From a virus: DNA of 23,446 nucleotides. The notes under the pieces are model-generated. The model worked only from the letters and a program-made list of their open reading frames with translations, was not told where the DNA came from and ran no database searches. Numbering within the stretch: the stretch's first letter is position 1; each line of letters starts with the position of its first letter. Location of the stretch: positions 1 through 23,446 of the IMG/VR virus record IMGVR_UViG_3300033146_000883. The stretch is one strand, 5' to 3'. The position numbers and the translations under genes are program-made. This document shows, piece after piece, positions 7,896-23,446 of this stretch.

Positions 7896-10184
7896 ATGTC
7901 CGTAACCTGGAATCCATCAGACAAAGCAGCTGACCTTACTCTTAGTAATGGAGATTTAACAGCTAGTAATACGACGGAAAATACTGCGTCAGTCAGAGCT
8001 GTTGGGTACGCTAAAGCGAGTAAATGGTATTGCGAAATAACTATCGACTCAATAGTTACACCTGATTTGATTACAATAGGAGTTGCTACGTCGGATTTTG
8101 TATTAACTTCTTTACTAGGTGATTCCACAGATGACCATTCTCTTGATGGAGATGGGTATACCTATTATAATGGGAATGGTTCTCACTATGCCACGCTAGA
8201 GTACACTGCTGGAGATATTGTAAGTATAGCAGTAGACACAGTTAATGAAAAACTATGGTATGCTGTTAATGGCGTTTGGGAAGGAGACCCCGTTGCTGGG
8301 ACAGGTGCAGTTCATTCACCATATAATGGTGCGTTCTGGTACCCTGCTGTATCACTAGAAAATGGAAGTGAACTTACCGCCAACTTTGGAGCAACCGCAT
8401 TCAGTTACACTATACCTAACGGGTTTAGTTCATTTACTGATGTTCTTTCCGAGATAGCTGTATTACCAGCTACTTGGAACGAAAATACTGCATATGCAGC
8501 AACATTTGAGGATGCTGGACTTACTATGAAGTCTGGTAATTCAATAAGTGCTTGCGTAGCTGACATAACAACAGGAGGGAGTAAATACTACTGGGAATAC
8601 TCAGCTTACATTCCGGATGACAGTGGTATTAAGCATAGATTCGGTATAGCACCTGAAACATACACTCCTGCAGAGGAAGAAATAGGAGAGACAGCAAATA
8701 CATACGCTTTAGGTAGCGACGGGGATAAGTATAATAACGACGTTGGAACAGCTTTATGTACTATACCTAGTGATGCTGATTGTGTAATTGGTGTAGCTTA
8801 CGACGCAGGAGCTGGTAAGCTTTACTACTCGGTAAATGGTACGTGGGTTGGTAACGCTGACCCAGTAGCAGGAACGAACCCAGCATTTACGTCAATTCCA
8901 AGTGGGTATATCCCAGCTTTTTCTGGCACACAATATAGTACATTCGGATTAGATAGGTGTACTTTAGTAACATTACCTGAAGATTTAACGTATTCATCTC
9001 CTACTGGGTATGCCCCGATTACTGGCAGTAATGATAACTCAGGTACAATGGCAGGAAATATTCCTACTGTCGGAGGTAACATTTGCGAGGAAGGAATATC
9101 TACCGCTACTATCAGCTATGAAATTCCTTTACCGACTGGGGAAATTCATGGAGCAAGTAAGTTATGCGGAGAACAAATTTCAGTTGAGGGAGAAATAGTT
9201 CAATACAGTATAGGAACAATAACTGGAGAGATTTTACCGGTTACTGGATTCTGCACAGCATCTCCTGCTTCTACTATGCAGGTAAAAATCCCTTCTGTCG
9301 TAGGTAATGCAATAACAGGTAGCTCACTATTTACTGAGGCGTTACCTTGCTTAGGTGGTATGTCTGCATCCATTGGAGATTTAGCTTCAGTTAAGATTGA
9401 AATTCCAATTTGTTCTGGGGATTTATCAGTAGGTGCTGGCATTAGTCTAGAATGCTTGCCAGCTATTGGCGCTATGGCGGGTACTCCAGGGTCACTTGCT
9501 TCTCTGGTAGGAGAGTTTATTCCTGTAATAGGTACTTCAGTAACTGGCGCAATAACTGCTGGGAAAGTACCACGAGTGCAAGGTAACTGCACTGCTATTA
9601 TTCCTGAAGTATCTTCAGTGCAAGTAAGTATTTCTCCTTCTTACGGAGCTATGCAAGCTGGCTCTGCGATTTACTTAGAAACTGCCCTTATGTCAGGAAT
9701 AATGGAGGCAAGTGTAGGTAACCTCGCGAGTATGGCAGGAAAATTTACTGCTGTAAAAGGAAATAGTTATTGTGGGAGTACATTAAATGGGGGTGCACCT
9801 GAATTAGAGATTAACTGGGCAATATCCGTAGGTCAAGTTGGTAAGTTATTAGGGCGTACTCCTAGGATTAAAGGAAGTATGTCAGCTGATATACCTAAAG
9901 TATTAACAATAAGTAGTACTTCCCCTTTAGTAAATGGAAATATACTCACTGTCCAAGGAACAGTTATTACTTTATCCCAAAGTATTAAAAAGCCTAAAGG
10001 GAAAATAACTGCAATTTCTGGAGAGGTTTGGGATTTAGAGTATACTTTACCTTTTGTAACTGGGAACATAGTATCAAAACAAGAAAATATTGCAACACTT
10101 TTAGGTGAGTGTAGGATACTTGGCCAGATAATTTGTGAGTCTAGTGATTATGATGGTTGGGTTATTAAGTATAGGAGACCATAG
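7896..10184 (+). CDS. Tandem SPRY-domain tail protein with long beta repeats
   Basis: This 762-residue product opens with two SPRY/B30.2-like domains, about residues 1-182 and 190-365. Both show the W-Y-x-E-I or Y-W-E-Y strand, a G-V/I-A turn, the Y-Y-N/K-Y-N-N turn, the D-x-x-x-x-K-L-W/Y-Y-x-V-N-G-x-W strand and a final aromatic strand. From about residue 370 to 740 comes a long run of diverged units of roughly 20-27 residues, each centred on a P-x-h-x-G turn (IPSVVG, LPCLGG, FIPVIG, VPRVQG, TPRIKG, LPFVTG). SPRY domains bind protein or glycan partners, so this is a candidate receptor-binding or fibre protein. The ribosome site lies just after a hairpin. The TAG stop overlaps the next gene's GTG by one base. 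Confidence 0.72.
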   Translation: MSVTWNPSDKAADLTLSNGDLTASNTTENTASVRAVGYAKASKWYCEITIDSIVTPDLITIGVATSDFVLTSLLGDSTDDHSLDGDGYTYYNGNGSHYATLEYTAGDIVSIAVDTVNEKLWYAVNGVWEGDPVAGTGAVHSPYNGAFWYPAVSLENGSELTANFGATAFSYTIPNGFSSFTDVLSEIAVLPATWNENTAYAATFEDAGLTMKSGNSISACVADITTGGSKYYWEYSAYIPDDSGIKHRFGIAPETYTPAEEEIGETANTYALGSDGDKYNNDVGTALCTIPSDADCVIGVAYDAGAGKLYYSVNGTWVGNADPVAGTNPAFTSIPSGYIPAFSGTQYSTFGLDRCTLVTLPEDLTYSSPTGYAPITGSNDNSGTMAGNIPTVGGNICEEGISTATISYEIPLPTGEIHGASKLCGEQISVEGEIVQYSIGTITGEILPVTGFCTASPASTMQVKIPSVVGNAITGSSLFTEALPCLGGMSASIGDLASVKIEIPICSGDLSVGAGISLECLPAIGAMAGTPGSLASLVGEFIPVIGTSVTGAITAGKVPRVQGNCTAIIPEVSSVQVSISPSYGAMQAGSAIYLETALMSGIMEASVGNLASMAGKFTAVKGNSYCGSTLNGGAPELEINWAISVGQVGKLLGRTPRIKGSMSADIPKVLTISSTSPLVNGNILTVQGTVITLSQSIKKPKGKITAISGEVWDLEYTLPFVTGNIVSKQENIATLLGECRILGQIICESSDYDGWVIKYRRP

Positions 10185-10648
10185 TGGGAAATATTATCTT
10201 AAAATTAAACTGCAAGAATGGCGGGCTTACTCAAGTTATGGGGTGGGATATTACTTCGTTAGCTCCAAATGCTAAGTATTTTGGAGGTGCTAGTGGTCTG
10301 TACAAAATCGATAATTCAGATACAGATAATGGAACTCCAATCACAGCGACCGTAGTAACGCCTGTTATGGATTACGGAGTTAAAAATAGTAAACGGATTA
10401 GAAGAGGATATTTACGTCTAGAAGCTGACGGAGATTTAACAATAACTTGCATAGCAGGGGAAGATAGAAGTTTTACAGGTACTGTGCATAGTACAATGCA
10501 AAAAGAAAAAGGAAAATCATTTCCAGGTAACCGTAGGTATTCAGGTACTGATTGGCATTTTGTTATTGAAAATATTCTTGGAGCTGATTTTAGTATTGAT
10601 TATCTTGGAATTTTATTTGTACCTCTTACTAGGCATAGGAGTTTATAA
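10184..10648 (+). CDS. Small beta-rich tail protein (GTG start)
   Basis: This 154-residue protein starts at GTG, supported by AGGAG six bases upstream inside the end of the SPRY gene. Its G overlaps that gene's TAG stop, so translation is probably coupled. The part KRIRRGYLRLEADGDLTITC, followed by a block of Arg and Lys with NRRYSGTDWHFVIENI and ADFSIDYLGILFVP, resembles a strand pattern I have seen in phage tail hub and fibre-attachment proteins, where it forms a compact beta-sandwich. No named domain is certain. The stop overlaps the next ATG by one base (TAATG). Confidence 0.55.
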   Translation: MGNIILKLNCKNGGLTQVMGWDITSLAPNAKYFGGASGLYKIDNSDTDNGTPITATVVTPVMDYGVKNSKRIRRGYLRLEADGDLTITCIAGEDRSFTGTVHSTMQKEKGKSFPGNRRYSGTDWHFVIENILGADFSIDYLGILFVPLTRHRSL

Positions 10649-13600
10649 TGTCAGATGCTTCCCCTACTGAATTAAATAGCACACTAGTTAGTACGAAATT
10701 CACTAGTACACTACAGTCTGTAGCAACTATGCAGCGATCTTTAACTAGATTAGTCAACCAGTTATCTGGCTATGGAGCACGAGTTCAGCCTTTACAGCCT
10801 GTTCAGTACCCTCACGTTTCTCCTTTAAGTAATAACATATCTAGTGGATTTTCTCTTCCAGGAACGGTAACTCCAGCTAATGTAACATTGCCTAATATTC
10901 CTCAATTAGCAACTGTTCCCGCAGTTAAAGGGACAATATCCCCTTTTGATATAGGAACTTCAGGGTATTCAGCTCCTACGTCTCCTGTGATTACAATGCC
11001 ATCTGTGCCTGGTAGCCCTATACTTAATACCCCTACATCGCCATCTCGCCCTAATCTACCAGCTAGTAGTGGTAAGCCAACTCGTCCTAATTTTTTGCCT
11101 ATTCCTGGAGTGTCAGCACCTGTTATTCAGTTACCCCGTGCACCAGTTGCAGATGCAATGAGGACAGTTACTCCACCCACAGCTCCAGAATTAGCAACAC
11201 CAGCTGCGCCAAGCGGAAGGCCTACTGCAGGTACTGTAACGATACCTACAGCTCCTGATATTGAAGTTAATTCTTCTTTACCAAGTAGTCCAACATTAAA
11301 CAGTATTACAGTTCCAACTGCACCTAATATTAGTGTAGATGAATTTACTGAAGCAGCTCCTGTATTAAATGATATAACATTACCTACAGCTCCTTCAATA
11401 GAATTACCTGCTAAACTTGGTGCACGACCAGCTACACCAGAAATATCTTTACCCAATGCTCCGGTACTTACTGACCCTGTTAAACCTAGTGGGTTAAATG
11501 TGATTATCCCAGATGCTCCTGAATTAGATTACTTAACATTTAATGAAGTATTGCCGGAAACAGATATTACGCCACCTACCACTGAATTTTTGTACAATGA
11601 AGAAGTGTATTCATCTTTGCTAGGTGATGAATTAACAGCTAAGATATTAGACAGTATTGTAAATGGAGGAACTGGACTTGCTCCTGAAGTAGAGGATGCT
11701 ATATGGGCTCGTTCGCGGGGTAGACTTGACGAAGAGCGAGGCATCCAGTATGCTCAAGTAATGGATACTTTTGCTAGCCGAGGATTTAAGTTACCTACTG
11801 GTGCAGTACAAGCTAGATTAAGTGAACTTGATAGAAAATTTACAAATTCACTTAATGATTTAAACAGAGATATTGTAGTAAAACAAGCTGAATTAACTTA
11901 CCAGAATCTTAAAGATACTATAACCGCAGGGTTAGAGCGGGAAAATGAAGTTCTTCAGTACACTAATTCCGTAAGACAAAGGGCATTCGAGTCAGCTAAA
12001 TATGCGGTCGAGGCTAGTATCCACTTGTACAATGCTTTTGTAACTGAATACAATATGAAGCTAGATGCATATAAAACACAAGCTACTGTTTTTGATACTA
12101 GGATTAAAGCACAGTTAACCCAGTCTCAGATATATGCTGCCCAAATGGAGGCAGTTAAAACACAAGCTAACTTAAAAGAATTGGAAATTAACTTATACAT
12201 TGCAGAACTTAATGGGAACAAAACAAAAGCTGACATATATAATTCTCAGATGCAAGGAGCTTCTGTTCAGGCTAGTATAAATAACTCAATTATTGCGGGA
12301 TTCCAAGCAGAAGTACAAGCATACGTAGCTGAAGTAAATGCCGCTAACTCTGAGATTCAAGTATACTTAGGACAAATGCAAGGAGCTAGTATAGCTGAAG
12401 AAATCAATAAGTCGAAAGTCAATACATACTTAGCAAAAATACAAGCTTACTCAACTAAGTTACAGGGGTTAGAAACTACCGCTAAAATATATAATTCTCA
12501 GATACAAGGTACATTAGCAGAAACACAAATCAATAAACAGTTGATGGACCAATTTTTAGCAGAAGTTCAAGGATATATTGCTACCTTAGAGAGCAGTAAA
12601 ATCAAAGCTGATATATTTACTCAACAAATGAATGCAGCTAAGATTGAGGGAGATATTAAAAAACTCGATATCGATGCGTACATAGCTGAAATACAAGCTT
12701 ACACAGCTGAACTAGAGGGCAATAAAAGTAAAGCCTCGCTGTATGCAACTGAAATGCAAGGAGCTATAGCTGCTCAATCATTTGAAAAAGCTAAAATAGA
12801 TAAGTACATTGGAGAAATACAAGCGTATTCAGCACAAGCTGGGGCGGAAAAAATTAAGGCTGATATATTTGAAAGTCAGGTGCAAAATGCAGTTGCTATG
12901 ACAGCTGTTAATAAAGATATGGCGACAATGTATACAGCTGATATCCAAGCGTACTTAGCTGACGCAAAGGCTAAAGAACTAGAGGTTAGCTTATTTAATG
13001 CTGAAATGCAAGGAGCTCTTGGTCAAATGCAGCTGGAAAAAGCAAGAGCTGATATATATAAAGGAGATGTAGAAGTTACTGCAACTTTAGGAAAACTCGA
13101 AGCACTTAAAGTAGATGCGTATAAAGCAGCTGTTGACGCAGAAGCAGCTAAAGTAGCTGGGTATACTGCTCAAGTTAAGGGCTATGAAGCTTTAGTTAAT
13201 GGGGAAGCAGCTGCTATCCAAGGCGAAGTTGCTGTTGCAAATGCAATAGTAGGAGAAAACAAAGCAGTATTAGCTGAATTTACTAAATCACTAGAAGGGT
13301 ATAAAGCTGCTGTAGAAGAAAGTATCACTAGAGCTAAACTCCAAATGACAGCTAATTCAGGAGAACTAGACGTTCAACTAGCTCAGGGCAAAATAGCATT
13401 AGTAGAAGAGCAAACTAATGTAGAAAATTTTAAAGGTCGTTTATTAGAAGCTGAATCAAAAACTAAAATACAATTAGAACAAGCTAGTGAAGCCTTCCAA
13501 GCTAGCCTTAAGCAAGCTGAATTGGCGCAAGACGGGGCTAAACTTGGTGCATCTGTTTTGGCTCAAGTTATATCTAGTGCGTTAACGTCTACAAATGTTT

Positions 13601-13713
13601 CAGCAAGCCTTGGTTATTCTGGAGGTTATTCTGCTAATTACAGCTATGATAGGACTAAAGGAAATACCTCAGGAACAACTACTAATAATCAACATATCTG
13701 GTACGAAGGTTAG
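10648..13713 (+). CDS. Long tail-fibre-like protein: proline-rich repeats plus 42-residue coiled-coil repeats
   Basis: This 1021-residue protein has three parts. Residues about 50-310 are proline-rich with repeated P-T-A-P or P-N/D-A-P turns. Residues about 330-490 are a mixed helical part with many charged residues. From 495 to about 823 it is built from helical repeats: one 35-residue unit (495-529), then seven units of exactly 42 residues (from 530, 572, 614, 656, 698, 740 and 782). Each repeat has an aromatic start, a Q-M-Q-G-A-like motif and an I-Q-A-Y-like motif. The end is Ser, Tyr, Gly and Thr-rich. Six heptads per unit suggest a long trimeric or rod-like shaft. GGAG lies six bases before ATG. 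A structural tail fibre or whisker is likely; an internal ejection protein is the alternative. Confidence 0.6.
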   Translation: MSDASPTELNSTLVSTKFTSTLQSVATMQRSLTRLVNQLSGYGARVQPLQPVQYPHVSPLSNNISSGFSLPGTVTPANVTLPNIPQLATVPAVKGTISPFDIGTSGYSAPTSPVITMPSVPGSPILNTPTSPSRPNLPASSGKPTRPNFLPIPGVSAPVIQLPRAPVADAMRTVTPPTAPELATPAAPSGRPTAGTVTIPTAPDIEVNSSLPSSPTLNSITVPTAPNISVDEFTEAAPVLNDITLPTAPSIELPAKLGARPATPEISLPNAPVLTDPVKPSGLNVIIPDAPELDYLTFNEVLPETDITPPTTEFLYNEEVYSSLLGDELTAKILDSIVNGGTGLAPEVEDAIWARSRGRLDEERGIQYAQVMDTFASRGFKLPTGAVQARLSELDRKFTNSLNDLNRDIVVKQAELTYQNLKDTITAGLERENEVLQYTNSVRQRAFESAKYAVEASIHLYNAFVTEYNMKLDAYKTQATVFDTRIKAQLTQSQIYAAQMEAVKTQANLKELEINLYIAELNGNKTKADIYNSQMQGASVQASINNSIIAGFQAEVQAYVAEVNAANSEIQVYLGQMQGASIAEEINKSKVNTYLAKIQAYSTKLQGLETTAKIYNSQIQGTLAETQINKQLMDQFLAEVQGYIATLESSKIKADIFTQQMNAAKIEGDIKKLDIDAYIAEIQAYTAELEGNKSKASLYATEMQGAIAAQSFEKAKIDKYIGEIQAYSAQAGAEKIKADIFESQVQNAVAMTAVNKDMATMYTADIQAYLADAKAKELEVSLFNAEMQGALGQMQLEKARADIYKGDVEVTATLGKLEALKVDAYKAAVDAEAAKVAGYTAQVKGYEALVNGEAAAIQGEVAVANAIVGENKAVLAEFTKSLEGYKAAVEESITRAKLQMTANSGELDVQLAQGKIALVEEQTNVENFKGRLLEAESKTKIQLEQASEAFQASLKQAELAQDGAKLGASVLAQVISSALTSTNVSASLGYSGGYSANYSYDRTKGNTSGTTTNNQHIWYEG

Positions 13714-13746: not shown

Positions 13747-15270
13747 ATGGTTAATACAACTAATGTTGTTATTAGAGGGAATAGATTTATTGCTCAAAGA
13801 TATATCGGGCACGCTCACAGATTTGCCGCACTTTTACGAGCTGACGCTAAATTAAATAACTTAAAAGTTATGTCAAGAGCTCAGGATTTCGGCGACTGTT
13901 ATTTATACGCGTACTTAAACCACGGCGAATGTATGGTAATTTTAACAACTGAGTATGGGGAGAAAAAGAGTAAAAAGAAAGTAGAAAAACAGGTAAGTAA
14001 AGCAGGCATCTTTCTAATTAAAAGTTTCTTAACTGAAGGTAAAGGCACTGAGCTTACTTGGGTATTAGTCGGCAAAGAAAAACAAGAATCTAAAATAGCA
14101 GAACTTATGCAGCAAGAAAGACGTTTTGCTGTATCAGCTGATTTACTTATTTGGGAGTACGATAAAACTAAAGACTACACCCCTTACTTGAATAGCCTTC
14201 TTACTAACTCTTGGAATAGATTACCAGTATATAAATATTTTGTTTGCAGTGAAACTACACCAATTCCGTATGTTAAGGAAGATGAAGATGAGTTGTCCTC
14301 ATACACACCTTTAGAAGAAGAAATATCTACGCCAATTCGCTATGTACGAGGAGATGATATTTTTTACTGCGATTCTAAATTAGCTAGTGGAACTCACATT
14401 TGCTTAGACAAACAAGCATTACCTAGTGAAAATGGGGTATTCCAGTATGCTTACGGTGAGCAAAAAAATCAAACTCCGACTATCTATACCTGTGGAGTTA
14501 AGGAAACTAAACTATTTTTAACGACTGAAGGGTTAACTGCTGTAGTAAAAGAAGCGACAAAAAGTATTTCTTACTCTACTGTAGTGGGTAAATTAGAAAA
14601 TGTGCCACCATTACCGGAGCAAGTAGATGCAATAACAGCAAATACTAATTGTATAATAAGTGCATCTCCTAGGAAAGTTAAAGTTCAAACTTGGGAGTCA
14701 GGTAGTACGCTGCCTGACCAACGAAAAAAGTATGCGTTATCATTCAACATTCGAATAAGTAAACGTATTGGGGAATATAAGTACATATCTAAAATCATTC
14801 CTGATATATCTAACGGTAATACAAGTAATGCTAAATACTGTTACCCTAGTTCTACTGGTGTATTCTTTGTTGCTGATAATATACTACCTGACATTAGCCT
14901 AGCTACTATTGATGAAAATTGGGCTACCCCAAATGAAGGTGGGTATTGGTCAGTAACTCCGAGGGGAAATGCTACTACTAGATTAGTGCATAATACTTGG
15001 GTTTACGTTGATTACCCTTTTAAGCAGGGAGCATATTCGAGTAATGCAAAAATCACAGTAAATCATCCTGTTAACTGTGGTGATTTTGAGATAGGATACC
15101 TTAACCAGCACTATATTAGTACTAGTCAAAATTTTGGGTTTATTTTACCTTACTGCACTACCTGGACACAACAAACTACTGGATACTGCTCTGCTTTAAG
15201 TGGTTATCTGGTAAAAACAAGTAAAAATGAATCGACAGATGTAGGTAACTACCATTGGACAGATTGGTGA
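13747..15270 (+). CDS. Tail protein, ended by an in-frame TGA (507 residues)
   Basis: I do not recognise this family. The first 130 residues are mixed alpha/beta and basic (EKKSKKKVEKQ). The rest is beta-rich with many Tyr, Trp, Asn, Thr and Cys, as in surface-exposed tail proteins. The gene lies among fibre and ejection genes, so a tail tip or host-contact role is plausible. The stop TGA at 15268 follows TGG (D-W-stop-G-E-G). The same frame stays open to 15972 with the same composition, so the natural product may be 741 residues. Codons here use TGG for all Trp. The start at 13747 lies directly after the dyad element with a weak GGGGA ribosome site. Confidence 0.65.
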   Translation: MVNTTNVVIRGNRFIAQRYIGHAHRFAALLRADAKLNNLKVMSRAQDFGDCYLYAYLNHGECMVILTTEYGEKKSKKKVEKQVSKAGIFLIKSFLTEGKGTELTWVLVGKEKQESKIAELMQQERRFAVSADLLIWEYDKTKDYTPYLNSLLTNSWNRLPVYKYFVCSETTPIPYVKEDEDELSSYTPLEEEISTPIRYVRGDDIFYCDSKLASGTHICLDKQALPSENGVFQYAYGEQKNQTPTIYTCGVKETKLFLTTEGLTAVVKEATKSISYSTVVGKLENVPPLPEQVDAITANTNCIISASPRKVKVQTWESGSTLPDQRKKYALSFNIRISKRIGEYKYISKIIPDISNGNTSNAKYCYPSSTGVFFVADNILPDISLATIDENWATPNEGGYWSVTPRGNATTRLVHNTWVYVDYPFKQGAYSSNAKITVNHPVNCGDFEIGYLNQHYISTSQNFGFILPYCTTWTQQTTGYCSALSGYLVKTSKNESTDVGNYHWTDW

Positions 15271-15301
15271 GGAGAAGGTTCTTTATCTGGGAGTATCCCA
15301 G
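15268..15301 (+). promoter_or_regulatory. Candidate recoding site: TGA followed by a stem-loop
   Basis: TGA (15268-15270) is followed directly by GGAGAAGG, a Shine-Dalgarno-like run. Sixteen bases after the TGA comes a perfect 6-bp stem, CTGGGA (15287-15292) with TCCCAG (15296-15301), closed by a GTA loop. The AGGT at 15276-15279 could also pair with ACCT at 15306-15309. A downstream stem at such a distance is a known stimulator of readthrough or of selenocysteine insertion. Which of these applies, if either, cannot be told from the sequence. Confidence 0.4.
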
Positions 15302-15972
15302 GCATACCTACTTTTACACCTAAAATACCCGATAGATGCATTGCTCCAGCTGTATGGCACCACACAGAAACGCATAATGATTCTCCTTTTTACGTTATCC
15401 CAGGGATAGCTGGGTATGGGTATACTAATATTAGTGGGCGAAGTACTGACACAGAAAAAGGTAGTACATTTTGTTGCAAACTAGCTTTACCTCCTGAAGC
15501 AAGTAGTCAACACGACCAAGGTTACCCTATTTTTTTACCTAGACCAAATGGTCAATCAACTGCATTTGATTACTCACTTGGTATCAGAGTTAATGCTCCT
15601 AATGAATGTAATAATTTAGTATTTAATATAAACTATAAAGGGGATACTAGTGCCAACTACCAGACTGCATTAGGATGGTTGCGTAATAATTTTATTATGC
15701 AGCAAATAGATGACATAGCGCTTAATGACTTTCACGTTTTGTTTTTTACTTCAGGTATTAGTAAAACTAATAGTTACATAAATTGGGAAAGAATGTCATT
15801 AGGTGATGTTGAAACAAACCAGCAATTTTTGTACATTAACGGGAAAGAAAGATATACTGACGTATATAATATTATGTGTAAATTTTATAAGCAAAAAATA
15901 CTAGAGTATACACAAGCTGGGCACACACTTGATAAATTTAATGTTATATCTTATGTTTTTTGTGCTAATTAA
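15271..15972 (+). CDS. In-frame extension of the tail protein after TGA, no start codon of its own
   Basis: These 233 sense codons continue the frame of the 13747 gene and end at TAA. No ATG, GTG or TTG occurs in frame until TTG 15679, and that has no good ribosome site. The composition (Tyr, Asn, Thr, Cys, paired W-H-H and F-C-C) matches the part before the TGA. The segment reads as a coding domain, not as random sequence, since a 700-base open frame would not be expected by chance in AT-rich DNA. It is thus either made by TGA readthrough as a C-terminal extension or is the remnant tail of a gene broken by one base change. A shorter product from 15679 (97 residues) is possible but less likely. 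Confidence 0.6.
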   Translation, partial: GEGSLSGSIPGIPTFTPKIPDRCIAPAVWHHTETHNDSPFYVIPGIAGYGYTNISGRSTDTEKGSTFCCKLALPPEASSQHDQGYPIFLPRPNGQSTAFDYSLGIRVNAPNECNNLVFNINYKGDTSANYQTALGWLRNNFIMQQIDDIALNDFHVLFFTSGISKTNSYINWERMSLGDVETNQQFLYINGKERYTDVYNIMCKFYKQKILEYTQAGHTLDKFNVISYVFCAN

Positions 15973-15984
15973 ATAGGAGGTAGT

Positions 15985-16596
15985 ATGTTCAAACACGGAA
16001 TGACTGATAAGCAATGGTATAATAGTGCAGAACGTTCAAGTGCACTTAGGAGCCTTCGCCAGAATTATGAAAAAGAAATGAAAGGAACTTATAAGCAGAA
16101 AGAAAAAAACAAAAGAACTGATATGCAGTTAGAATCAACTCTTAGAAAAAAGAATGAGCTGTCTTGGATAAATGCCAAAGGTAGAGCATCTATGCTAGAA
16201 AGAGCTCTTATGAATAAAGGGGAACTGGAACGCCAAGCACTAGCTAATAAACCTAAGATGGCGCAAGTAGATTCAAGAAAGGAATACTATCGGGGGATAG
16301 GTAGGGCAGCTAATTTAGATGCTGATTCAAAAAAGATATCATTACAGTATGCTGATAGGAGAGCAAGAAGAGGAGTTAATTTACCACCTAGAAAATCAAG
16401 TAAAAAAAGCAAACCAGCAAGAGGTTTAACTAAAGAAGAATATAATTCAATTGTTGGGCTAGAAGCAAATGAAACAAGTGCGTTTGACATCACTGAACTA
16501 TTAGAGGCTAACAAAGAAAATGATAAAAGGTTACAACAACTAGGCTTAGAGCAAGAACGGCAAAGAGAACTTGACATAGCAGATATTAACTTTTAG
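15985..16596 (+). CDS. Small basic virion protein, likely internal/ejection component
   Basis: This 203-residue protein is hydrophilic, rich in Lys, Arg, Glu and Gln, and probably mostly helical. It has a strongly basic stretch (about residues 132-148: PPRKSSKKSKPARG) and lacks membrane segments or cysteines. AGGAGG lies 6 bases before ATG, so expression should be high. It sits directly before the giant ejection-type gene; in podoviruses small internal virion proteins are encoded at this place and leave the capsid with the DNA. No sequence family is recognised, so this role is inferred from context and composition. Confidence 0.55.
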   Translation: MFKHGMTDKQWYNSAERSSALRSLRQNYEKEMKGTYKQKEKNKRTDMQLESTLRKKNELSWINAKGRASMLERALMNKGELERQALANKPKMAQVDSRKEYYRGIGRAANLDADSKKISLQYADRRARRGVNLPPRKSSKKSKPARGLTKEEYNSIVGLEANETSAFDITELLEANKENDKRLQQLGLEQERQRELDIADINF

Positions 16597-16610: not shown

Positions 16611-19600
16611 ATGAATTTGCTCGATAGCATACAAGCTGACGGAATTGCCGCATTTAAGGCCGACCGTATAGCAGCAGTAAAAGCGCAAGCTGCTAGATAT
16701 AAATTACTAGCAAAGCCTGAAGACATCGACAAAATAGCAGCTAGCTATACTCAAACACTTAGCCCAAGTAATAGACTCCCTAGGTATAATAAGTATGCTA
16801 GGAAATCTGCAGCTGTGGACGCTAATATTCCTGACAATCACCCAATGAAAGGATTTGCCCAAAACCTTTCAACAGCTTTACGGACTGCATTGCAGTCCCC
16901 GGAAACTGTCAATATGTCCCCTTACGAAGTGGTAAACCAGCTAGGGAGTACTATGTATGCTGGTATCAAGGATAAAAAAGGGAATACAATAGCAACTAGC
17001 TCTAACAAGTATTACCGAGAAAGTAATACTTGGGGGATGTCTACACTTAAAAAACCCTTTGGCTACGACAAATGGCACGAAGAAGCAGTGCGCCGAGAAG
17101 ACGCTGAGAATGATAAAGAATCTTGGATAGCTTCTCCAGGAAAGATACTTGCCTTTGGAGCTATTGGGGCAACAGTAGCTGCTAGCATAGCGGCCCTCCC
17201 TTTTACCGGCGGCGGTTCAGTTATGCTAACATTACCTGCATTGGCTGAAGTGTTCGGCGCTTCTGCACTGGCAACAATCCCAGGGCATATGGTAGAGAAA
17301 GCAATTCATAAGACTGAAGGGTATAGAGCTAATGCGGCGTCTGACAGCTGGGTAGATAATCTTCAAGCCGGGGCAGTTGCTACTGTCGGATACGGAGCAT
17401 TTGATGCTGCAGGAATGTCCCTTTCAAAGAAGTTTGTCAGACCGGCAGTTAAATCTTGGAAAATTGCCAGGGATTTAGGTAAAGTAGATATTGCTAAAAT
17501 ACTACAAGGAATAGAAATCAGTAAAGGTAACACCCAAACAGTATTAAGTATTACTAAAGATGCCATTGATAAAGTACACCCTGAAGATATAGCAGGACTT
17601 GGCACCAGCACACGCAAAGCATTAAGCAGTGCTGATAAATACTTTGGGAATATAATTAATCGTAAAAGAGAATTAGCTAATGTATTCTTAGAGGATATGG
17701 AAGGTGGAGTTGTTGGGGAATTTGACGCAATAGCACAAGCCGCTAAGCTTACAACAGGAGCTGAAGTAGATAAGCAAGCTGCTATGGCAAGCCAAAAAGC
17801 TTTGGCGAAGAGAGTAGAGTCTGGGGAATTTGCTGCTATAGGTAATTCATCTGCTGCTCAAGCTGCATACTCAGCGATAGGGGAAGCAGCTGGGGGAGAA
17901 GTTACTGAGGCTACATTAAGGAAAGCTGCGTATAAAGGAGCTACGGCATTTCTAGACTTAGAAAGTGACCTACTGCAAAGTCGCGCCCTTCTTGACCCAC
18001 AAGGCCCAGTCGTTGGGTCGCTTAATGCACTCCGTGACCAGAAAGTGTCAAAGGCATTTTATAAACCTAAGAAGTTATCTACCATTTTAGACCTCCCCGG
18101 CAAAGCTACTAGGGCATTAAAGAGTGTGGACGTAGGTAAGCTTAATGAGATAGCCCACACTGCTGGGAGTGATTTACGTTTCCAGGATATGGCGGCAGAT
18201 ACAGCACTGGACTTAGAAAATAAAGTAGCTAAGTATATCCAGCGTAAGGGTATAGTATCCCCTGAGAAAAGTAAAACACTTAAACCAGCCCTTAAAGCTA
18301 TTAGGAAATGGGGAGTACCTGCAAGTGCTGTACTTTTATTTATGGGGGATACTGACGACGCTGATGCCAGTATCTGGGGGAATGTTGGAGAACTGGCTGT
18401 TAATTCAATCACTAAGCATTTAGCAGAAACTGGTGTAATCCCTCAAGCTATTAAAGAAGGTGAAGTTGTATTTGCTGAAAAGTATGTTCAAAAAGCTGTA
18501 TCAACAGTGGGTAAAGTAGCTAAGGATGGAACGCCTAAGCTATCGGCAGCTCAAGAGTTTTCTTCTCTCTTCAGGGAAATGGTTACAGGGTCAAAGGGTA
18601 AAATTAGGGAAGCTTTATTTAAGGGAATGTCACCGCACCAACTTACTGAATTAACAGTAGGTAATAAAGCAGGTAAAATGATAAGCCCTGCGGTGCAAAA
18701 ATTAAGTTACTATATGGCGGAGTTAAATAATATTACAGCAGGAAGGCAAATATTCAAAAATATTACAGATAGAGTAGGGCATACATCTGAATACACTATG
18801 CTCTCTAAAGAGTTTGGGGTACTGAATGAAGCCGCAGCTGTTGAAATGAAACATAACTTTCACCGAGCAGAGATATTCAAGATAGAAAAAGAGCTTGCTA
18901 AGATAACAGAACGTGCTGGTAAAATGAAAGGCGGAGCAGATGATGCAATGCTTTTGGACATTAAAAACTGGAAAAGTCAGCTAAAAGAAGCGGTAGCTAA
19001 TAAGGACGCTACAGAGGCTGGGGCTAAGGAATATATAAAATCTTGGGACATACTAGCACAAAACAAAGCTCAAACAAGCCAGTCAGTTAGAGTATCCCTT
19101 GCACTTGATTCCATCGACAGTCAAGGTAATTACGGGAAATACCCCTGGCTTGAGGGAATGCTTACTGAGGATGATAAAATACTCACAGGATTAACCAGGA
19201 ATTTTCTAGACAGTTATAAAACAAGAATGGAGAAGTTAGGATTGCCTGTGATTAAAGAAGCGTATTTTCCTCACAGACCTAATAAGTTAATCTCTGAAAT
19301 GTTGCAAGACCTAGACCCAGGCAGGTACGATGCACAGGCCTTCAATAGGTTTTATAGTAGAACATCGCCAAACAGTAGGCCAGCTGTCCCAGACCTTGTT
19401 GACACAATGAACTGGTACATAGCAGATACCGAAAAGCGTCTGGCAAATCACCAGTTTTGGAATGTTGAAGGGTGGAAAGATGTTATGCACAGTAAAATGG
19501 TGCAAGCTCACCCAGGTGTTGCTGATGCTTTCGATGACTTGTATATGGGGAGTAACCCGATTGAATGGACTGCACTTAATAAGACTGCGGCAATTTACTC

Positions 19601-20771
19601 TAACTGTGAAGTGTACAAGCGGCTCTTCCTTAGTACTGGTGCAGGGCTTAAGCACTTAACAAAAGCCGTAGGTACTATAGCTCAGATGCCTTATGAGCAT
19701 ATAATTCCAACAGTAGTTGGAGCTGGTAGGATAACTTATCATAATGTAGCTGACCAAGTTCACTTGACAGACAAGTTAATTAAGATGGGCTTTATGAAAA
19801 AAGAAGCTCACGAGACTATCACTAAAATGTCTAAAGCCTTAATGGGGACAAATGTCAGTAGGCAAATGGTAGTTGACTCCACTATGGAAATACCTCACGC
19901 GACTTTCCAGAAGTTTCAAAAAGTAGCTAACAAAGTGCAAGATGTTGGGTCATTCTTCTTAAACACAGCAGAGATATTTGACAGAGCAATGTCTATTGAA
20001 GCAGCTTCAAGGATGCGAGCTAAAAGAGGAATGACTGCTGCTCAAGCACTCTACGGTATTCACCACCAGATTCTTACCAACAATTTTATATCAAGGGAGT
20101 TTAATGTGCCATTCCTTAAGCACCCAATGGCTAGAGCACTGGCGATGTTCCAAGCTACCCCTTACAAGATAGCTGAAAGGAGAGCAGTAGCAGCTGTTAG
20201 GTCTAAGCGTACAATAGTAGAGATAGCCAAAGGAGTTAAGATAAGTATTAAAGAAGATGGTGGAAAGCAATTACTGAAAGACTTAAGAGCAGTCGGAAAA
20301 TATATTAAGACAGCTGAAAAGCAGTACCAAGCTAATATGTTTGTTGATGCACTTAGTAATGAAACTGATTTCTTTGGAACACCAGTGCTATACAACAGTA
20401 TGAAAGAAATGACTGTAGCTGCTGCGGCAACTTACGGAGCTGCGGTAGGAGTAAACAGTGCCCTTGAACACCACTTCTTTCACCTGCCATTCCTTGACCA
20501 ACGGGATTACAGATTAACCCTTGGAATTAACCCTATAGTTCAAGCAGCTATGACAACGTGGCACTACAGAAGGGATAATGATGATAGCTTCTTAATAACA
20601 GATATGTACCAGAATTGGTTAGGGACAGGTGGAGCACTTATTCCTATGTCAGTAGTGAGAGGTATGAACATAATGGAAGGGCATAGCCCAGACATCTATG
20701 GCGATGATGAATTAAGATTGCTGCGCTACTTCCTCAGTGTTCCGGCATACGATACTTACCACGGAAAATAA
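16611..20771 (+). CDS. Large internal virion/DNA ejection-type protein
   Basis: This 1386-residue protein is the largest and last of the late genes. It begins with Ala/Lys-rich helices. A hydrophobic stretch at about 181-221 (from ILAFGAIGATVAASIAALPF onwards) could form one or two membrane helices, and short hydrophobic parts recur near 575-585 and 1265-1290. Most of the rest is predicted helical with many charged residues. I see no lysozyme or polymerase motif, so it is not an N4-type virion RNA polymerase. A very long, partly membrane-active protein after a small basic gene at the end of the module fits ejection proteins such as T7 gp16-class components, which build a channel across the cell envelope. 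AAGGG lies 8 bases before ATG. Confidence 0.6.
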   Translation: MNLLDSIQADGIAAFKADRIAAVKAQAARYKLLAKPEDIDKIAASYTQTLSPSNRLPRYNKYARKSAAVDANIPDNHPMKGFAQNLSTALRTALQSPETVNMSPYEVVNQLGSTMYAGIKDKKGNTIATSSNKYYRESNTWGMSTLKKPFGYDKWHEEAVRREDAENDKESWIASPGKILAFGAIGATVAASIAALPFTGGGSVMLTLPALAEVFGASALATIPGHMVEKAIHKTEGYRANAASDSWVDNLQAGAVATVGYGAFDAAGMSLSKKFVRPAVKSWKIARDLGKVDIAKILQGIEISKGNTQTVLSITKDAIDKVHPEDIAGLGTSTRKALSSADKYFGNIINRKRELANVFLEDMEGGVVGEFDAIAQAAKLTTGAEVDKQAAMASQKALAKRVESGEFAAIGNSSAAQAAYSAIGEAAGGEVTEATLRKAAYKGATAFLDLESDLLQSRALLDPQGPVVGSLNALRDQKVSKAFYKPKKLSTILDLPGKATRALKSVDVGKLNEIAHTAGSDLRFQDMAADTALDLENKVAKYIQRKGIVSPEKSKTLKPALKAIRKWGVPASAVLLFMGDTDDADASIWGNVGELAVNSITKHLAETGVIPQAIKEGEVVFAEKYVQKAVSTVGKVAKDGTPKLSAAQEFSSLFREMVTGSKGKIREALFKGMSPHQLTELTVGNKAGKMISPAVQKLSYYMAELNNITAGRQIFKNITDRVGHTSEYTMLSKEFGVLNEAAAVEMKHNFHRAEIFKIEKELAKITERAGKMKGGADDAMLLDIKNWKSQLKEAVANKDATEAGAKEYIKSWDILAQNKAQTSQSVRVSLALDSIDSQGNYGKYPWLEGMLTEDDKILTGLTRNFLDSYKTRMEKLGLPVIKEAYFPHRPNKLISEMLQDLDPGRYDAQAFNRFYSRTSPNSRPAVPDLVDTMNWYIADTEKRLANHQFWNVEGWKDVMHSKMVQAHPGVADAFDDLYMGSNPIEWTALNKTAAIYSNCEVYKRLFLSTGAGLKHLTKAVGTIAQMPYEHIIPTVVGAGRITYHNVADQVHLTDKLIKMGFMKKEAHETITKMSKALMGTNVSRQMVVDSTMEIPHATFQKFQKVANKVQDVGSFFLNTAEIFDRAMSIEAASRMRAKRGMTAAQALYGIHHQILTNNFISREFNVPFLKHPMARALAMFQATPYKIAERRAVAAVRSKRTIVEIAKGVKISIKEDGGKQLLKDLRAVGKYIKTAEKQYQANMFVDALSNETDFFGTPVLYNSMKEMTVAAAATYGAAVGVNSALEHHFFHLPFLDQRDYRLTLGINPIVQAAMTTWHYRRDNDDSFLITDMYQNWLGTGGALIPMSVVRGMNIMEGHSPDIYGDDELRLLRYFLSVPAYDTYHGK

Positions 20772-20804
20772 AGAGTCCCCGTTCAATTATTGTACGAGCA
20801 CTCC
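20772..20804 (+). repeat. 33-bp dyad element, copy 3
   Basis: It follows the TAA of the last late gene without a gap. It shares AGAGTCCCCGTTCAATTATT with the minus strand of copy 2 and keeps the inverted GT..CAAT/ATTG..AC core. Since no rightward gene follows, a promoter role for rightward genes is unlikely at this copy. Confidence 0.75.
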
Positions 20805-20812
20805 AAAGAAAA

Positions 20813-20833
20813 GGGGCCCAGATTATGGGCCCC
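20813..20833. terminator. Bidirectional intrinsic terminator between convergent modules
   Basis: GGGGCCCA and TGGGCCCC form a perfect 8-bp GC-rich stem around a GATTA loop. On the minus strand the stem is followed by TTTTCTTT, a good T-tract for ending the leftward genes. On the plus strand TATTTACTTT follows, a weaker tract for the late genes. Its place between the two converging gene sets supports use in both directions. Confidence 0.85.
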
Positions 20834-20860
20834 TATTTACTTTAACAAATCATTAAATAG

Positions 20861-21085
20861 TTAGCAATTCATATCATCGTATCCTTCAAAGTAATTCAAT
20901 GGAAGCCAACCTTTAATTTCACTTGTTGAGACTTCAAACCTATCATCACAACAAACCCATACATTATTCCCTATAGGGCCATAACAAAACCACCCATCAC
21001 ACACTGACCCGTCTTCTAGGAAGAGCAAGATTATAGAATTGTCAAGTGGAGCATCTTTAATTGGATTTAATTTTATTTGCTGCAT
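20861..21085 (-). CDS. Small accessory protein, DUF551-like
   Basis: This 74-residue protein runs from MQQIKLNPIKDAPLDNS to YDDMNC. The pattern 'I-x-D-A-P-x-D', then strands with an acidic turn, then G-W-x-P-L near the end resembles DUF551 proteins, small and common in phages and of unknown function. A longer frame begins at 21154, but AAGGAG lies 9 bases before this internal ATG and the longer start would cross the att-like half site, so I prefer 21085. The stop TAA lies in GTTAGC, similar to the way neighbouring genes end in their att-like boxes. It is the last leftward gene before the terminator. Confidence 0.6.
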   Translation of the reverse strand: MQQIKLNPIKDAPLDNSIILLFLEDGSVCDGWFCYGPIGNNVWVCCDDRFEVSTSEIKGWLPLNYFEGYDDMNC

Positions 21086-21098
21086 TTCATTCTTCTCC

Positions 21099-21131
21099 TT
21101 AAGTTGGGTGCCAGTTATTGTAGGCGTTATG
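21099..21131 (+). other. attC-like half site A (right half only)
   Basis: An L'-like box GTGCCAGTT (21108-21116) and an R'-like box GTTATG (21126-21131, inside GGCGTTATGCC) lie at the same spacing as in site C. Bases 21099-21118 are identical to 22087-22106 over 20 bases. No convincing left half lies to the left, where the DUF551-like gene is found. The stop codon of the next gene on the right sits inside GTTATG. Confidence 0.6.
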
Positions 21132-21423
21132 CCTCTTCTGGGTTCAGTGCCCAATTATAGTTAAAGTCGCTCACATCTTCGAGGTAGTCATTAATACTCT
21201 CAAAACGAATCATCCTATGCAATACATCACAGTTCTTGTACTCAACGTATTTATTCGCAGAATTCAAAAGAACGTCACTAAATGCTTTGGTAGTATAATC
21301 CCAAGATGGGTTGCTATGAACAACCCAGCGATTAGCATCACTATTTTTCAATAGCCATACCCTGAAATACGGCATAACAAATCGCTCAACTGGACGGCTT
21401 ATGCCGCCTGGCTTTTGCCACAT
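21127..21423 (-). CDS. Accessory protein of unknown function (cassette gene)
   Basis: This 98-residue protein is not recognised. It is rich in Asn, Asp, Tyr and Trp, with a basic N-terminus (MWQKPGGISRPVERF) and an acidic C-terminus (NPEEA). GGAG lies 5 bases before ATG 21423, which decides this start over the in-frame ATG at 21453. The first 15 codons lie within the left half of att-like site B, and another in-frame ATG (21375) lies in its CATAAC box. If that later ATG is used, the protein would be 82 residues and the gene would start exactly at the box. Its TAA stop is inside the GTTATG of half site A. Confidence 0.55.
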   Translation of the reverse strand: MWQKPGGISRPVERFVMPYFRVWLLKNSDANRWVVHSNPSWDYTTKAFSDVLLNSANKYVEYKNCDVLHRMIRFESINDYLEDVSDFNYNWALNPEEA

Positions 21424-21470
21424 TGTAACTCCTTTCTGCGGCATAAGCCGCAAGTTAGCTTTGTCGTTAT
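21373..21470 (+). other. attC-like recombination site B
   Basis: R'' CATAAC (21373-21378) pairs with R' GTTAT (21466-21470). L'' AACTGGACGGC (21388-21398) pairs with L' GCCGCAAGTT (21447-21456), with one extra base in the left arm. The left end (GGCATAACAAATCGCTCAAC) resembles the left end of many integron attC sites. The loop between the L boxes holds two further short hairpins (CGGC-TTAT-GCCG and TGCGGC-ATAA-GCCGCA) and the ribosome site of the 21127-21423 gene. Confidence 0.7.
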
Positions 21471-21628
21471 TTTCTATTTCTCCTACGAGACTTTTGCACT
21501 AACTTTCGTAATCTCTTTTTTCTACAATCGGCTTTCTTGAAACAGTAGTTAAAAGTTTCTTTGCCCCTTGCTCGCACTATATCGTTTATATCGTGAAATG
21601 CTGAAAAATATAGGCTTAAATTATCCAA
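21467..21628 (-). CDS. Small basic protein, 53 residues, TTG start
   Basis: The frame starts at TTG with GGAGG five bases upstream and ends at TAA inside the R' box of site B. The product begins DNLSLYFSAFHDINDIVRAR and ends in a very basic tail (KKADCRKKRLRKLVQKSRRR). It has two cysteines and might bind nucleic acid, but no family is recognised. The strong ribosome site, the basic tail, and its fit between two att-like sites all argue for a real gene. The lack of ATG explains why it could be missed. Confidence 0.6.
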   Translation of the reverse strand: MDNLSLYFSAFHDINDIVRARGKETFNYCFKKADCRKKRLRKLVQKSRRRNRK

Positions 21629-21642
21629 AACAACCTCCGTAA

Positions 21643-21727
21643 AATAATAATCTCATACAGCCCGACCAGAATAAGCGGCAAAAATCACAGTGAACTTCGA
21701 CGCTGGCGGCTGATGATAGGCGTTATG
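21643..21727 (+). other. attC-like recombination site B'
   Basis: L'' CAGCCCGACCAG (21658-21669) pairs with L' CTGGCGGCTG (21703-21712) through CAGCC/GGCTG and CCAG/CTGG, with two extra bases on the left arm. R' GTTATG (21722-21727) is inside GGCGTTATGCC, the same box as in half site A. The R'' side reads AATAAT followed by AATC, so one C of the usual TAAC core is changed to T. Its left arm would then be mutated. Confidence 0.6.
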
Positions 21728-21733
21728 CCTCTA

Positions 21734-21973
21734 CTAACTCGTAAGTTTTTCAAAAATATCTGGTTTATAAGGAGGGTCAGAACGTTTTTCAAAAATATCT
21801 GGTTTATAAGGAGGGTCAGAACAAGAACATCTAGTTGTTCTTAATGTTTTCTCCTTTTCCCAGATATACCTAGTCTGTGCGTTGCAGATAGCTCCACATT
21901 TACACTCCCAGTCGCTATGCCCTTCCATTACATAACTTCCACAAAAAAAACACTCTAATACTTGATGTCCCAT
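21734..21973 (-). CDS. Small zinc-ribbon protein with duplicated C-terminus (cassette gene)
   Basis: This 79-residue protein begins MGHQVLECFFCGSYVMEGH, followed by WECKCGAIC. The four to five cysteines (C-x-x-C and C-x-C-x-x-x-C) fit a zinc ribbon, so it may bind nucleic acid or protein. AAGGAG lies 6 bases before ATG 21973; ATGs further upstream lack such a site. The C-terminus carries the 13-residue unit SDPPYKPDIFEK(R/L) twice, from a 39-bp perfect tandem repeat at 21745-21822. The TAG stop follows R' of site B' by six bases. It lies between sites B' and C. Confidence 0.65.
   Translation of the reverse strand: MGHQVLECFFCGSYVMEGHSDWECKCGAICNAQTRYIWEKEKTLRTTRCSCSDPPYKPDIFEKRSDPPYKPDIFEKLTS
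21745..21822. repeat. Perfect 39-bp tandem duplication within the zinc-ribbon gene
   Basis: Bases 21745-21783 and 21784-21822 are identical. Thirty-nine bases equal 13 codons, so the frame is kept and a peptide unit is doubled. Perfect identity suggests a recent duplication, probably by slippage. Confidence 0.95.
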
Positions 21974-22073
21974 AATATTCTCCTTGATAGCACATAACAA
22001 TCAAATAAACTGGACACTTGGACACTTTACCGCCGCCAGCTTCTTTAGTTTCAACTTCTTCATTTGCTTTCAT
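21915..22073 (-). CDS. Possible 52-residue protein inside att-like site C
   Basis: An ATG with GAGG eight bases upstream opens a 52-codon frame in the loop of site C. It starts MKANEEVETKEAGGGKVSKC and ends about 60 bases inside the zinc-ribbon gene in another frame. The first part is acidic and polar, the second hydrophobic (PVYLIVMCYQG), and the last 19 residues overlap the next gene. No family is recognised. The ribosome site supports translation, perhaps as a leader that couples expression of the zinc-ribbon gene, but a chance frame cannot be ruled out. Confidence 0.3.
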   Translation of the reverse strand: MKANEEVETKEAGGGKVSKCPVYLIVMCYQGEYYGTSSIRVFFLWKLCNGRA

Positions 22074-22118
22074 TTATATTTCCTCTTTAAGTTGGGTGCC
22101 AGTTATCAAGGCGTTATG
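21993..22118 (+). other. attC-like recombination site C
   Basis: R'' CATAAC (21993-21998) pairs perfectly with R' GTTATG (22113-22118). L'' AACTGGACAC (22008-22017) pairs with L' GTGCCAGTT (22096-22104) with one extra A in the left arm, as in integron attC sites. The 126-bp length is inside the known attC range. The loop between the L boxes holds the start of a short leftward frame. Confidence 0.75.
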
Positions 22119-22153
22119 GTGTCAGAACGTGGCGAGTCCTGACACCAAAGTAA

Positions 22154-22414
22154 TTAAATTGCAGTATAGCCTGACTCAAAAGCTGGTGCTGGTGAATACG
22201 AGGTGTACCCATCTTCATACACAACGTAATAACCCCCTACTTCCGGCGCAAAACGATCTTTCCATTCGTCGGTTAGAAATTGGCTACCTCCAATTTCTCC
22301 AAAAACCATCGTGTGGGAACCAGTCCCGTCACTTTCGTGGCTCTTGATTTCAGTAATTTTAGCGGCCCTTACTTTTTTGTGACATTGGTACTGTGGTAAC
22401 TGCATATGTTCCAT
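22154..22414 (-). CDS. Conserved small phage protein of unknown function (cassette gene)
   Basis: This 86-residue protein (MEHMQLPQYQCHKKVRAAKI...) has a typical two-part pattern: Y-Q-C-H-K-x-V-R-A-A-K-I near the start and V-G-G-Y-Y-V-V-Y-E-D-G-Y-T-S-Y-S-P-A near the end. I know this pattern from many phage and prophage proteins without a known role. AAGGAG lies seven bases before ATG 22414, so I reject the longer start at 22435, which would begin in the box of site D. It lies between sites C and D as a single cassette. The stop TAA is not in an att box, unlike some neighbours. Confidence 0.65.
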   Translation of the reverse strand: MEHMQLPQYQCHKKVRAAKITEIKSHESDGTGSHTMVFGEIGGSQFLTDEWKDRFAPEVGGYYVVYEDGYTSYSPAPAFESGYTAI

Positions 22415-22440
22415 AATCTTTCTCCTTCGGTGCAATGCAC

Positions 22441-22521
22441 CATAACAATCAGGTAGAGCCGACGCGAAACTACCGGTTTAATTTGAGCCCTGCGGTCGCG
22501 TGGCTCACCGTTGGCGCTATG
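22441..22521 (+). other. attC-like recombination site D
   Basis: R'' CATAAC (22441-22446) lies opposite R' GCTATG (22516-22521), with pairing extended outwards by GCAC/GTGC and one mismatch at T-to-C in the R' core. L'' GAGCCGACGCG (22456-22466) pairs with L' CGCGTGGCTC (22497-22506) with one extra G on the left arm. The start TAACAATCAGGTAGAGCCGAC is close to what I recall of aadA-type attC sites (TAACAATTCGTTCAAGCCGA). The TAG stop of the gene to the right falls inside GCTATG. Confidence 0.75.
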
Positions 22522-22765
22522 GTGCAATACTGGCATTTGGGACATTATGGGTAAACTCTTCGTAGCTAGAGCACCCCGCAAACTTCTCTTTGGTACAGGC
22601 TTCGGGGCTATTCCTCCTACCTCTTAACTTGCAGAATTGAACCATTGCAGGTTCATTAAAGGAAACATCTCTTAACCAAAATACTTTACCGCTACCCAGT
22701 ACTTGCTTCTTTGCTGCTGGGTATTTATCGTCAAAATCTAAATATTTACACGCTGTAAATTCCAT
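22517..22765 (-). CDS. Small cysteine-containing protein, putative metal binding
   Basis: This 82-residue protein (MEFTACKYLDFDDKYPAAKK...) has cysteines at about 6, 45, 57 and 65, in the pattern C-K-Y-L ... F-C-K-L-R-G-R-R-N-S-P-E-A-C ... G-C-S-S-Y-E-E. Four spaced cysteines suggest a metal site, but no named family is recognised. AGGGAG lies seven bases before ATG. The gene is between the DUF3987-like gene, 39 bases upstream, and site D, where its TAG stop lies in the mutated R' box. The region between it and the upstream gene holds no att-like site, so it may belong to the phage backbone and not to the cassette set. Confidence 0.6.
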   Translation of the reverse strand: MEFTACKYLDFDDKYPAAKKQVLGSGKVFWLRDVSFNEPAMVQFCKLRGRRNSPEACTKEKFAGCSSYEEFTHNVPNASIAP

Positions 22766-22804
22766 AAGCTATCTCCCTACGTAACTGCACTGTAGCAATT
22801 CACC

Positions 22805-23446
22805 TCATATTTCTGCTCCATCTATCCAGTAATACCACACTCCCCGCTGACCATCCGGACCTTGGAACTCCCTCTTCACTTTACCTGTCCTAATCGCTGT
22901 CTCTATGACGTTGTCAAACTTCTTAGCATCAACATCCCTCCACATTATCTGCAGTAGTGCCGCTTCGCTAATCATCTTCCTGGTTTTAATCTCCACTAAC
23001 ACTGTGTTAACATCTGGGGATAACTCACTCCGCCCGACGGCATTAAAGGTATTCCCCATATTCCGCTCCACTTCCTCTACATCTTCAATCGCTTGAGCAA
23101 ATGAAGCCCATTCAATAACTCTACAATCACCCCGCATAGCTGCATTTATCACAGCCAGTTTCTGAATGTACAAGGGCTTTCTGGAGTACCACCCCCTAAA
23201 CGCTTTATCCTGTGCCAGCCTACCTGCGTTCTCTTCATCGTACCCCTGGTACCAATTATCCCAGGCTGTATAACACTCAGCACTTAAAGTATACGGCCCA
23301 GTAATCCTAGATATAGCAATCAAATCCTGCAATACAGCTTGCTCTAATTCCTTAGGTGGCTTCTTCGGAGCTGTTACTTTCTTCTGCCTCCCACTAGCCC
23401 AGACAAACATTATCCGAGATGTTAGGCCGCCTCCGATAGCTTGGAC
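22805..23446 (-). CDS. C-terminal part of a DUF3987-type phage primase/helicase-like protein (5' end outside window)
   Basis: The frame is open from the right edge of the window: 12 in-frame codons (VQAIGGGLTSRI) precede the ATG at 23410, so the true start lies outside. The segment GGGLTSRIMFVW, then an acidic helical part with A-W-D-N-W-Y, then F-R-G-W-Y-S-R-K-P-L-Y-I-Q-K-L-A-V-I-N-A, and later E-D-V-E-E-V-E-R-N-M and G-R-S-E-L resemble what I recall of the C-terminal half of DUF3987-family proteins linked to phage DNA replication. The last 70 residues look like a winged helix. The stop is TGA. It marks the replication or early module, upstream of the accessory genes. Confidence 0.5.
   Translation of the reverse strand, partial: VQAIGGGLTSRIMFVWASGRQKKVTAPKKPPKELEQAVLQDLIAISRITGPYTLSAECYTAWDNWYQGYDEENAGRLAQDKAFRGWYSRKPLYIQKLAVINAAMRGDCRVIEWASFAQAIEDVEEVERNMGNTFNAVGRSELSPDVNTVLVEIKTRKMISEAALLQIMWRDVDAKKFDNVIETAIRTGKVKREFQGPDGQRGVWYYWIDGAEI

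Follow-up and report, generated by a model that had tools for sequence, protein, structure and literature searches.

Phage genes divided by stop codons

Two kinds of described phage systems come closest to the locus analyzed here. In phage Q-beta the readthrough protein A1 is made at a frequency of about 1 in 15 (PMC8067240). UGA is the leakiest of the stop codons (PMC5289835; PMC9481147), and it is read through at 12% in E. coli and at 0.04–0.08% in two Pseudomonas species (PMC9481147). The second kind is represented by mutants of phage 812, in which the tail fibre gene orf119 was split after a deletion and the RNase H gene was split by an in-frame nonsense mutation (PMC6445280).

The locus described here has a long in-frame coding extension past a single UGA, as Q-beta A1 does, and this extension would likewise give a minor, longer virion protein; however, A1 is experimentally known and belongs to the coat gene of an RNA phage (PMC8067240), whereas ours is a tail-type gene of a dsDNA phage, its longer product is predicted, and its stop is not known to be conserved. 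The locus resembles the phage 812 mutants in that a stop splits a gene into two open reading frames (the second of which is in frame in the RNase H case) and in that tail genes are affected, but there the parent and the mutant were both sequenced, while the present allele is known from one record. We conclude that the TGA is probably a recent, ordinary nonsense mutation, or else a consensus error of the metagenome assembly, in one tail-type gene of about 741 codons. The likelihoods that we attach to this and to the other readings below are judgements and not computed probabilities.

The interrupted gene and its neighbourhood

The sequence analyzed, here called the window, is the whole 23,446-base stretch of virus record IMGVR_UViG_3300033146_000883, which is probably a fragment of a genome. 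It encodes a P22-type portal, a terminase, a major head protein and connector-type genes. A portal-based scan for relatives found 24, of which the closest is IMGVR_UViG_3300013103_000061 (the "sister phage"); its terminase, portal and major head protein are 87%, 78% and 90% identical to those of the window, respectively.

The first part of the interrupted gene (13747–15267, + strand) has 507 codons beginning with the ATG at 13747, and is followed by the in-frame TGA (15268–15270, + strand; the next base is G) and by a further 233 codons in the same frame (the extension, 15271–15972, + strand) which end with the TAA at 15970–15972, so that the whole would have 507 + 1 + 233 = 741 codons. Reading of the frame bears out the preliminary description in these positions and numbers, and equally in its statement that no in-frame ATG, GTG or TTG is present for 408 bases past the TGA; the first such codon is the TTG at 15679, which could start 97 codons. 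The extension takes up the space as far as the next gene, which encodes a 203 amino acid protein (15985–16596, + strand); the AGGAGG ribosome-binding site of that gene (15975–15980, + strand) lies 2 bases past the TAA of the extension, and its ATG lies 12 bases past it. Beyond is a large gene encoding 1386 amino acids (16611–20771, + strand), whose sister homologue is 61% identical and which serves as an anchor of synteny. On the other side, the upstream gene (10648–13713, + strand; PHROG 10969, unknown function) is also syntenic in the sister phage.

Several other features of this region may be recorded. The 1021 amino acid protein of the upstream gene is about 180 residues longer than its 842 amino acid sister homologue, and two overlapping alignments between them suggest internal repeats. 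At the N-terminus of a 762 amino acid protein of the structural region (7896–10184) there is a SPRY domain (Pfam PF00622, E 3e-16); the sister-phage match of this protein is to the C-terminal part and not to the SPRY part. Past the structural genes, from 20772 to 23446, the + strand has only open reading frames of 109 (TTG start) and 63 amino acids, and short minus-strand reading frames come after these, the last of which is partial (22805–23446) and matches a DNA primase (PHROG 14296, E 3.8e-8); because of this partial primase match, the replication genes probably run in the opposite direction.

Coding character of the extension

Given the dinucleotide composition of the extension itself, stops are expected at 7.5% per codon, and the probability that 233 codons would be open is about 1.4e-8 (about 2.6e-5 by the same model for the 136 codons ahead of TTG 15679); the two other + strand frames of the extension contain 10 and 40 stops. 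A codon log-odds score trained on the window's other genes gives 0.360 ± 0.046 in frame for the whole extension, 0.414 ± 0.063 for its start-less part and 0.318 ± 0.032 ahead of the TGA, and negative values for the out-of-frame readings. The extension is thus coding, with the codon usage of the window's genes even ahead of the first possible start. No other window gene has a long extension without a start codon close to where it begins; the 353-codon run past gene 2863 is the head-protein gene, whose own ATG is the fifth codon of the run.

These values bear on the possibility that the functional protein is the 507-residue form, with the extension either left over from a longer ancestor or separately started from a rare codon or from TTG 15679. 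A Shine-Dalgarno-like stretch, GAGGAGAAGG, overlaps the TGA and could be taken to serve such a start, and the TTG at 15679 offers one. But no ATG, GTG or TTG lies within 50 bases past that stretch in any frame, so that no usual in-frame start stands at a working distance from it, and the nearest in-frame near-cognate codon is the ATC at 15295. Moreover, the part ahead of TTG 15679 looks no less coding-like than the remainder, so that initiation at this TTG does not account for the extension, and the length of the sister gene (691 codons, below) is matched by the full length and not by the 507 codons. We therefore consider a relic or a separate start to be very unlikely. The preliminary description took the extension to be part of the same gene, lacking a usual start codon for itself, and the analysis supports this.

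Relatives of the interrupted gene

In the sister phage, one uninterrupted 691-codon open reading frame without an internal stop (L027:6557–8632, minus strand) lies at the same place, between homologues of both flanking genes, which is the arrangement expected in a relative if the TGA marks a nonsense allele; the homologue of gene 15985 starts 10 bases past it. The first 84 residues of the window and sister proteins are 37% identical (E 5e-12). Since the sister phage has one uninterrupted gene in this place with a shared N-terminus, the two pieces in the window are best regarded as one tail-type gene of about 741 codons. The two genes are thus alike in place, in neighbours, in their first 84 residues and approximately in total length (691 and 741), and unlike in that the sister gene has no stop inside and that the remaining protein is too diverged, or has been replaced, to align; past residue 84 there is no significant similarity between the two. 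Fast divergence past the N-terminus is common in adsorption proteins. As the C-terminal parts are not alignable, what the sister gene shows is an uninterrupted frame and not a particular codon at the position of the TGA.

Searches of viral contigs, phage records and genome contigs with the first part, the extension and the sister gene, as proteins and with a degenerate DNA pattern over YHWTDW, found relatives only in the sister phage and none for the extension, and they turned up no near strain (records very near the window may be absent from these collections). The search for homologues suggested in the preliminary description thus gave an uninterrupted sister gene, but no relative that aligns across the TGA site and none that conserves the TGA; for this reason programmed readthrough is without comparative support. 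Two apparent likenesses between the window and sister proteins were discarded. One, spotted by eye, is that of window DVGNYHWTDW to sister ESGNYFWWYDF, and it was not significant in shuffles. The other is that of the last 50 residues of the extension to the last 50 of the sister protein (shuffle p about 0.007); a control, the end of the 507-residue part, gave 0.0025 in one of two alignment modes.

The tail-type genes of more distant relatives are single open reading frames of 550, 608 and 332 amino acids. The 550 amino acid protein has an N-terminal domain in common with the other two (E 5e-13 and 1e-5), and this domain could not be linked significantly with the window gene (hhalign E 0.03, probability 1.7%). 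The 332 amino acid gene, in relative G004 (reverse complement of L031, 1903–3800), has a threonine-rich linker and a TGA end, and it overlaps an open reading frame in another frame that extends to 3800. It was tried as a second case of readthrough and rejected; its frame closes four codons past the TGA, and this is an ordinary gene end.

Neither the family libraries (Pfam, PHROG) nor the PDB sequences gave anything significant for the protein of the interrupted gene, and AlphaFold without an alignment gave unusable models (mean pLDDT 31 for both proteins). The gene sits among structural genes, and its start is conserved while the rest changes fast; from this we infer that its product is a tail or adsorption protein, of which residues 1–84 would be the N-terminal attachment part. 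The term "tail protein" in the preliminary description therefore stands as one drawn from context, but no family library or PDB match lies behind it.

Use of TGA in the window and related loci

One in-frame TGA followed by an open frame could in principle mean that TGA is read as an amino acid throughout, as in a code-4 type phage or by a suppressor tRNA. The conserved genes argue otherwise: in 25 related loci, none of 133 gene copies (not all of them independent, some loci overlapping or sharing a contig) has an internal stop, and the copies end in TGA (8), TAG (37) or TAA (88). Window gene 5846 ends in TGA at the same place as its sister homologue ends. Sense TGA in several genes, which would mark a recoded genome, was not found, and a search of the window and of 14 related loci, all of which are fragments, gave no tRNA gene. 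Because TGA ends 8 of the 133 copies and is never internal, it acts as a genuine, though seldom used, terminator, and these phages do not follow a TGA-sense code; we give general reassignment almost no credence.

The sequence around the TGA

A stem-loop with a putative role (15270–15315, + strand) begins at the TGA and lies directly 3' of it; its upper stem pairs 15286–15292 with 15296–15302, and its loop is GUA. The 51-base piece at the TGA has a folding energy of -15.3 kcal/mol (z -2.1), and z is also -2.1 for a 101-base piece centred on it, but -0.7 and 0.0 in two other pieces. Equal stability is found in 2.2% of all 51-base pieces of the window and at 10 of its 423 TGA positions, and only one local hairpin between 13747 and 16600 is stronger than the stem-loop. 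As evidence for readthrough it is mild and was noticed after the fact.

Programmed readthrough with a function, in which the UGA would be read at a few percent, probably by tRNA-Trp and perhaps with help from the hairpin, would give virions in which most tail proteins have 507 residues and a few have 741, in the manner in which Q-beta makes A1. The leakiness of UGA, the hairpin that begins at it and an extension that is both intact and coding are all consistent with this. The sister gene without a stop and the modest hairpin, however, argue against it, as does the great difference in UGA readthrough between E. coli and the two Pseudomonas species (above), since even the background level would depend on the host. 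We think programmed readthrough unlikely. Its fuller form, in which hairpin-aided readthrough of the UGA would let a dsDNA phage regulate how long its adsorption protein is, each virion carrying mainly short tail proteins and fewer long ones in a ratio set by host misreading, appears to us more doubtful.

The hairpin might also direct selenocysteine to the UGA. There is a GU in its apical loop, at roughly the same distance from the UGA as in the E. coli fdhF element. On the other hand, the hairpin region has no Rfam match at E ≤ 10 and no recognised SECIS element, 3.8% of all TGA triplets score equally by a loose stem criterion, there is no redox motif around the site, and we know of no phage tail selenoprotein. 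We regard selenocysteine as extremely improbable.

Origin and consequences of the TGA

A nonsense change or record error is better supported than readthrough, which the preliminary description had set beside it; the uninterrupted sister gene and the use of TGA as a plain terminator favour the former, and the latter is weak and without conservation. Such a change would be an easy one, as TGA is one transition away from two common codon kinds, and of the 59 single transitions that would create a stop in this gene, 18 yield TGA. We infer that a nonsense change, rather than a regulated stop, is present here. Several observations count against this reading: the C-terminal parts of the window and sister proteins do not align, the extension is undecayed, the TGA allele was abundant enough for assembly, and the hairpin past the TGA exceeds 98% of the window in stability. 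The undecayed extension means that the change is recent or that the extension is still in use.

Under the nonsense or record-error reading, 13747–15972 would be one adsorption gene whose N-terminal attachment part is conserved and whose C-terminal part evolves fast, and the single in-frame TGA that cuts it in this record would be either recent or a consensus error. Most ribosomes would release the 507-residue protein without the C-terminal third, and ordinary misreading of UGA might yield traces of the full-length protein. The TGA allele could then be defective or a variant in host range, or it could represent a minority genome that was retained in the consensus.

If the TGA is a nonsense allele, the locus adds to the cases in which a phage adsorption gene has been lost or switched, and it also carries a caution for gene calling, in which a 233-codon extension of this kind would be missed or called as a 97 amino acid fragment. 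If readthrough should prove to be true, the gene would be a DNA-phage counterpart of Q-beta A1, in which translation errors of the host set the composition of the virion.
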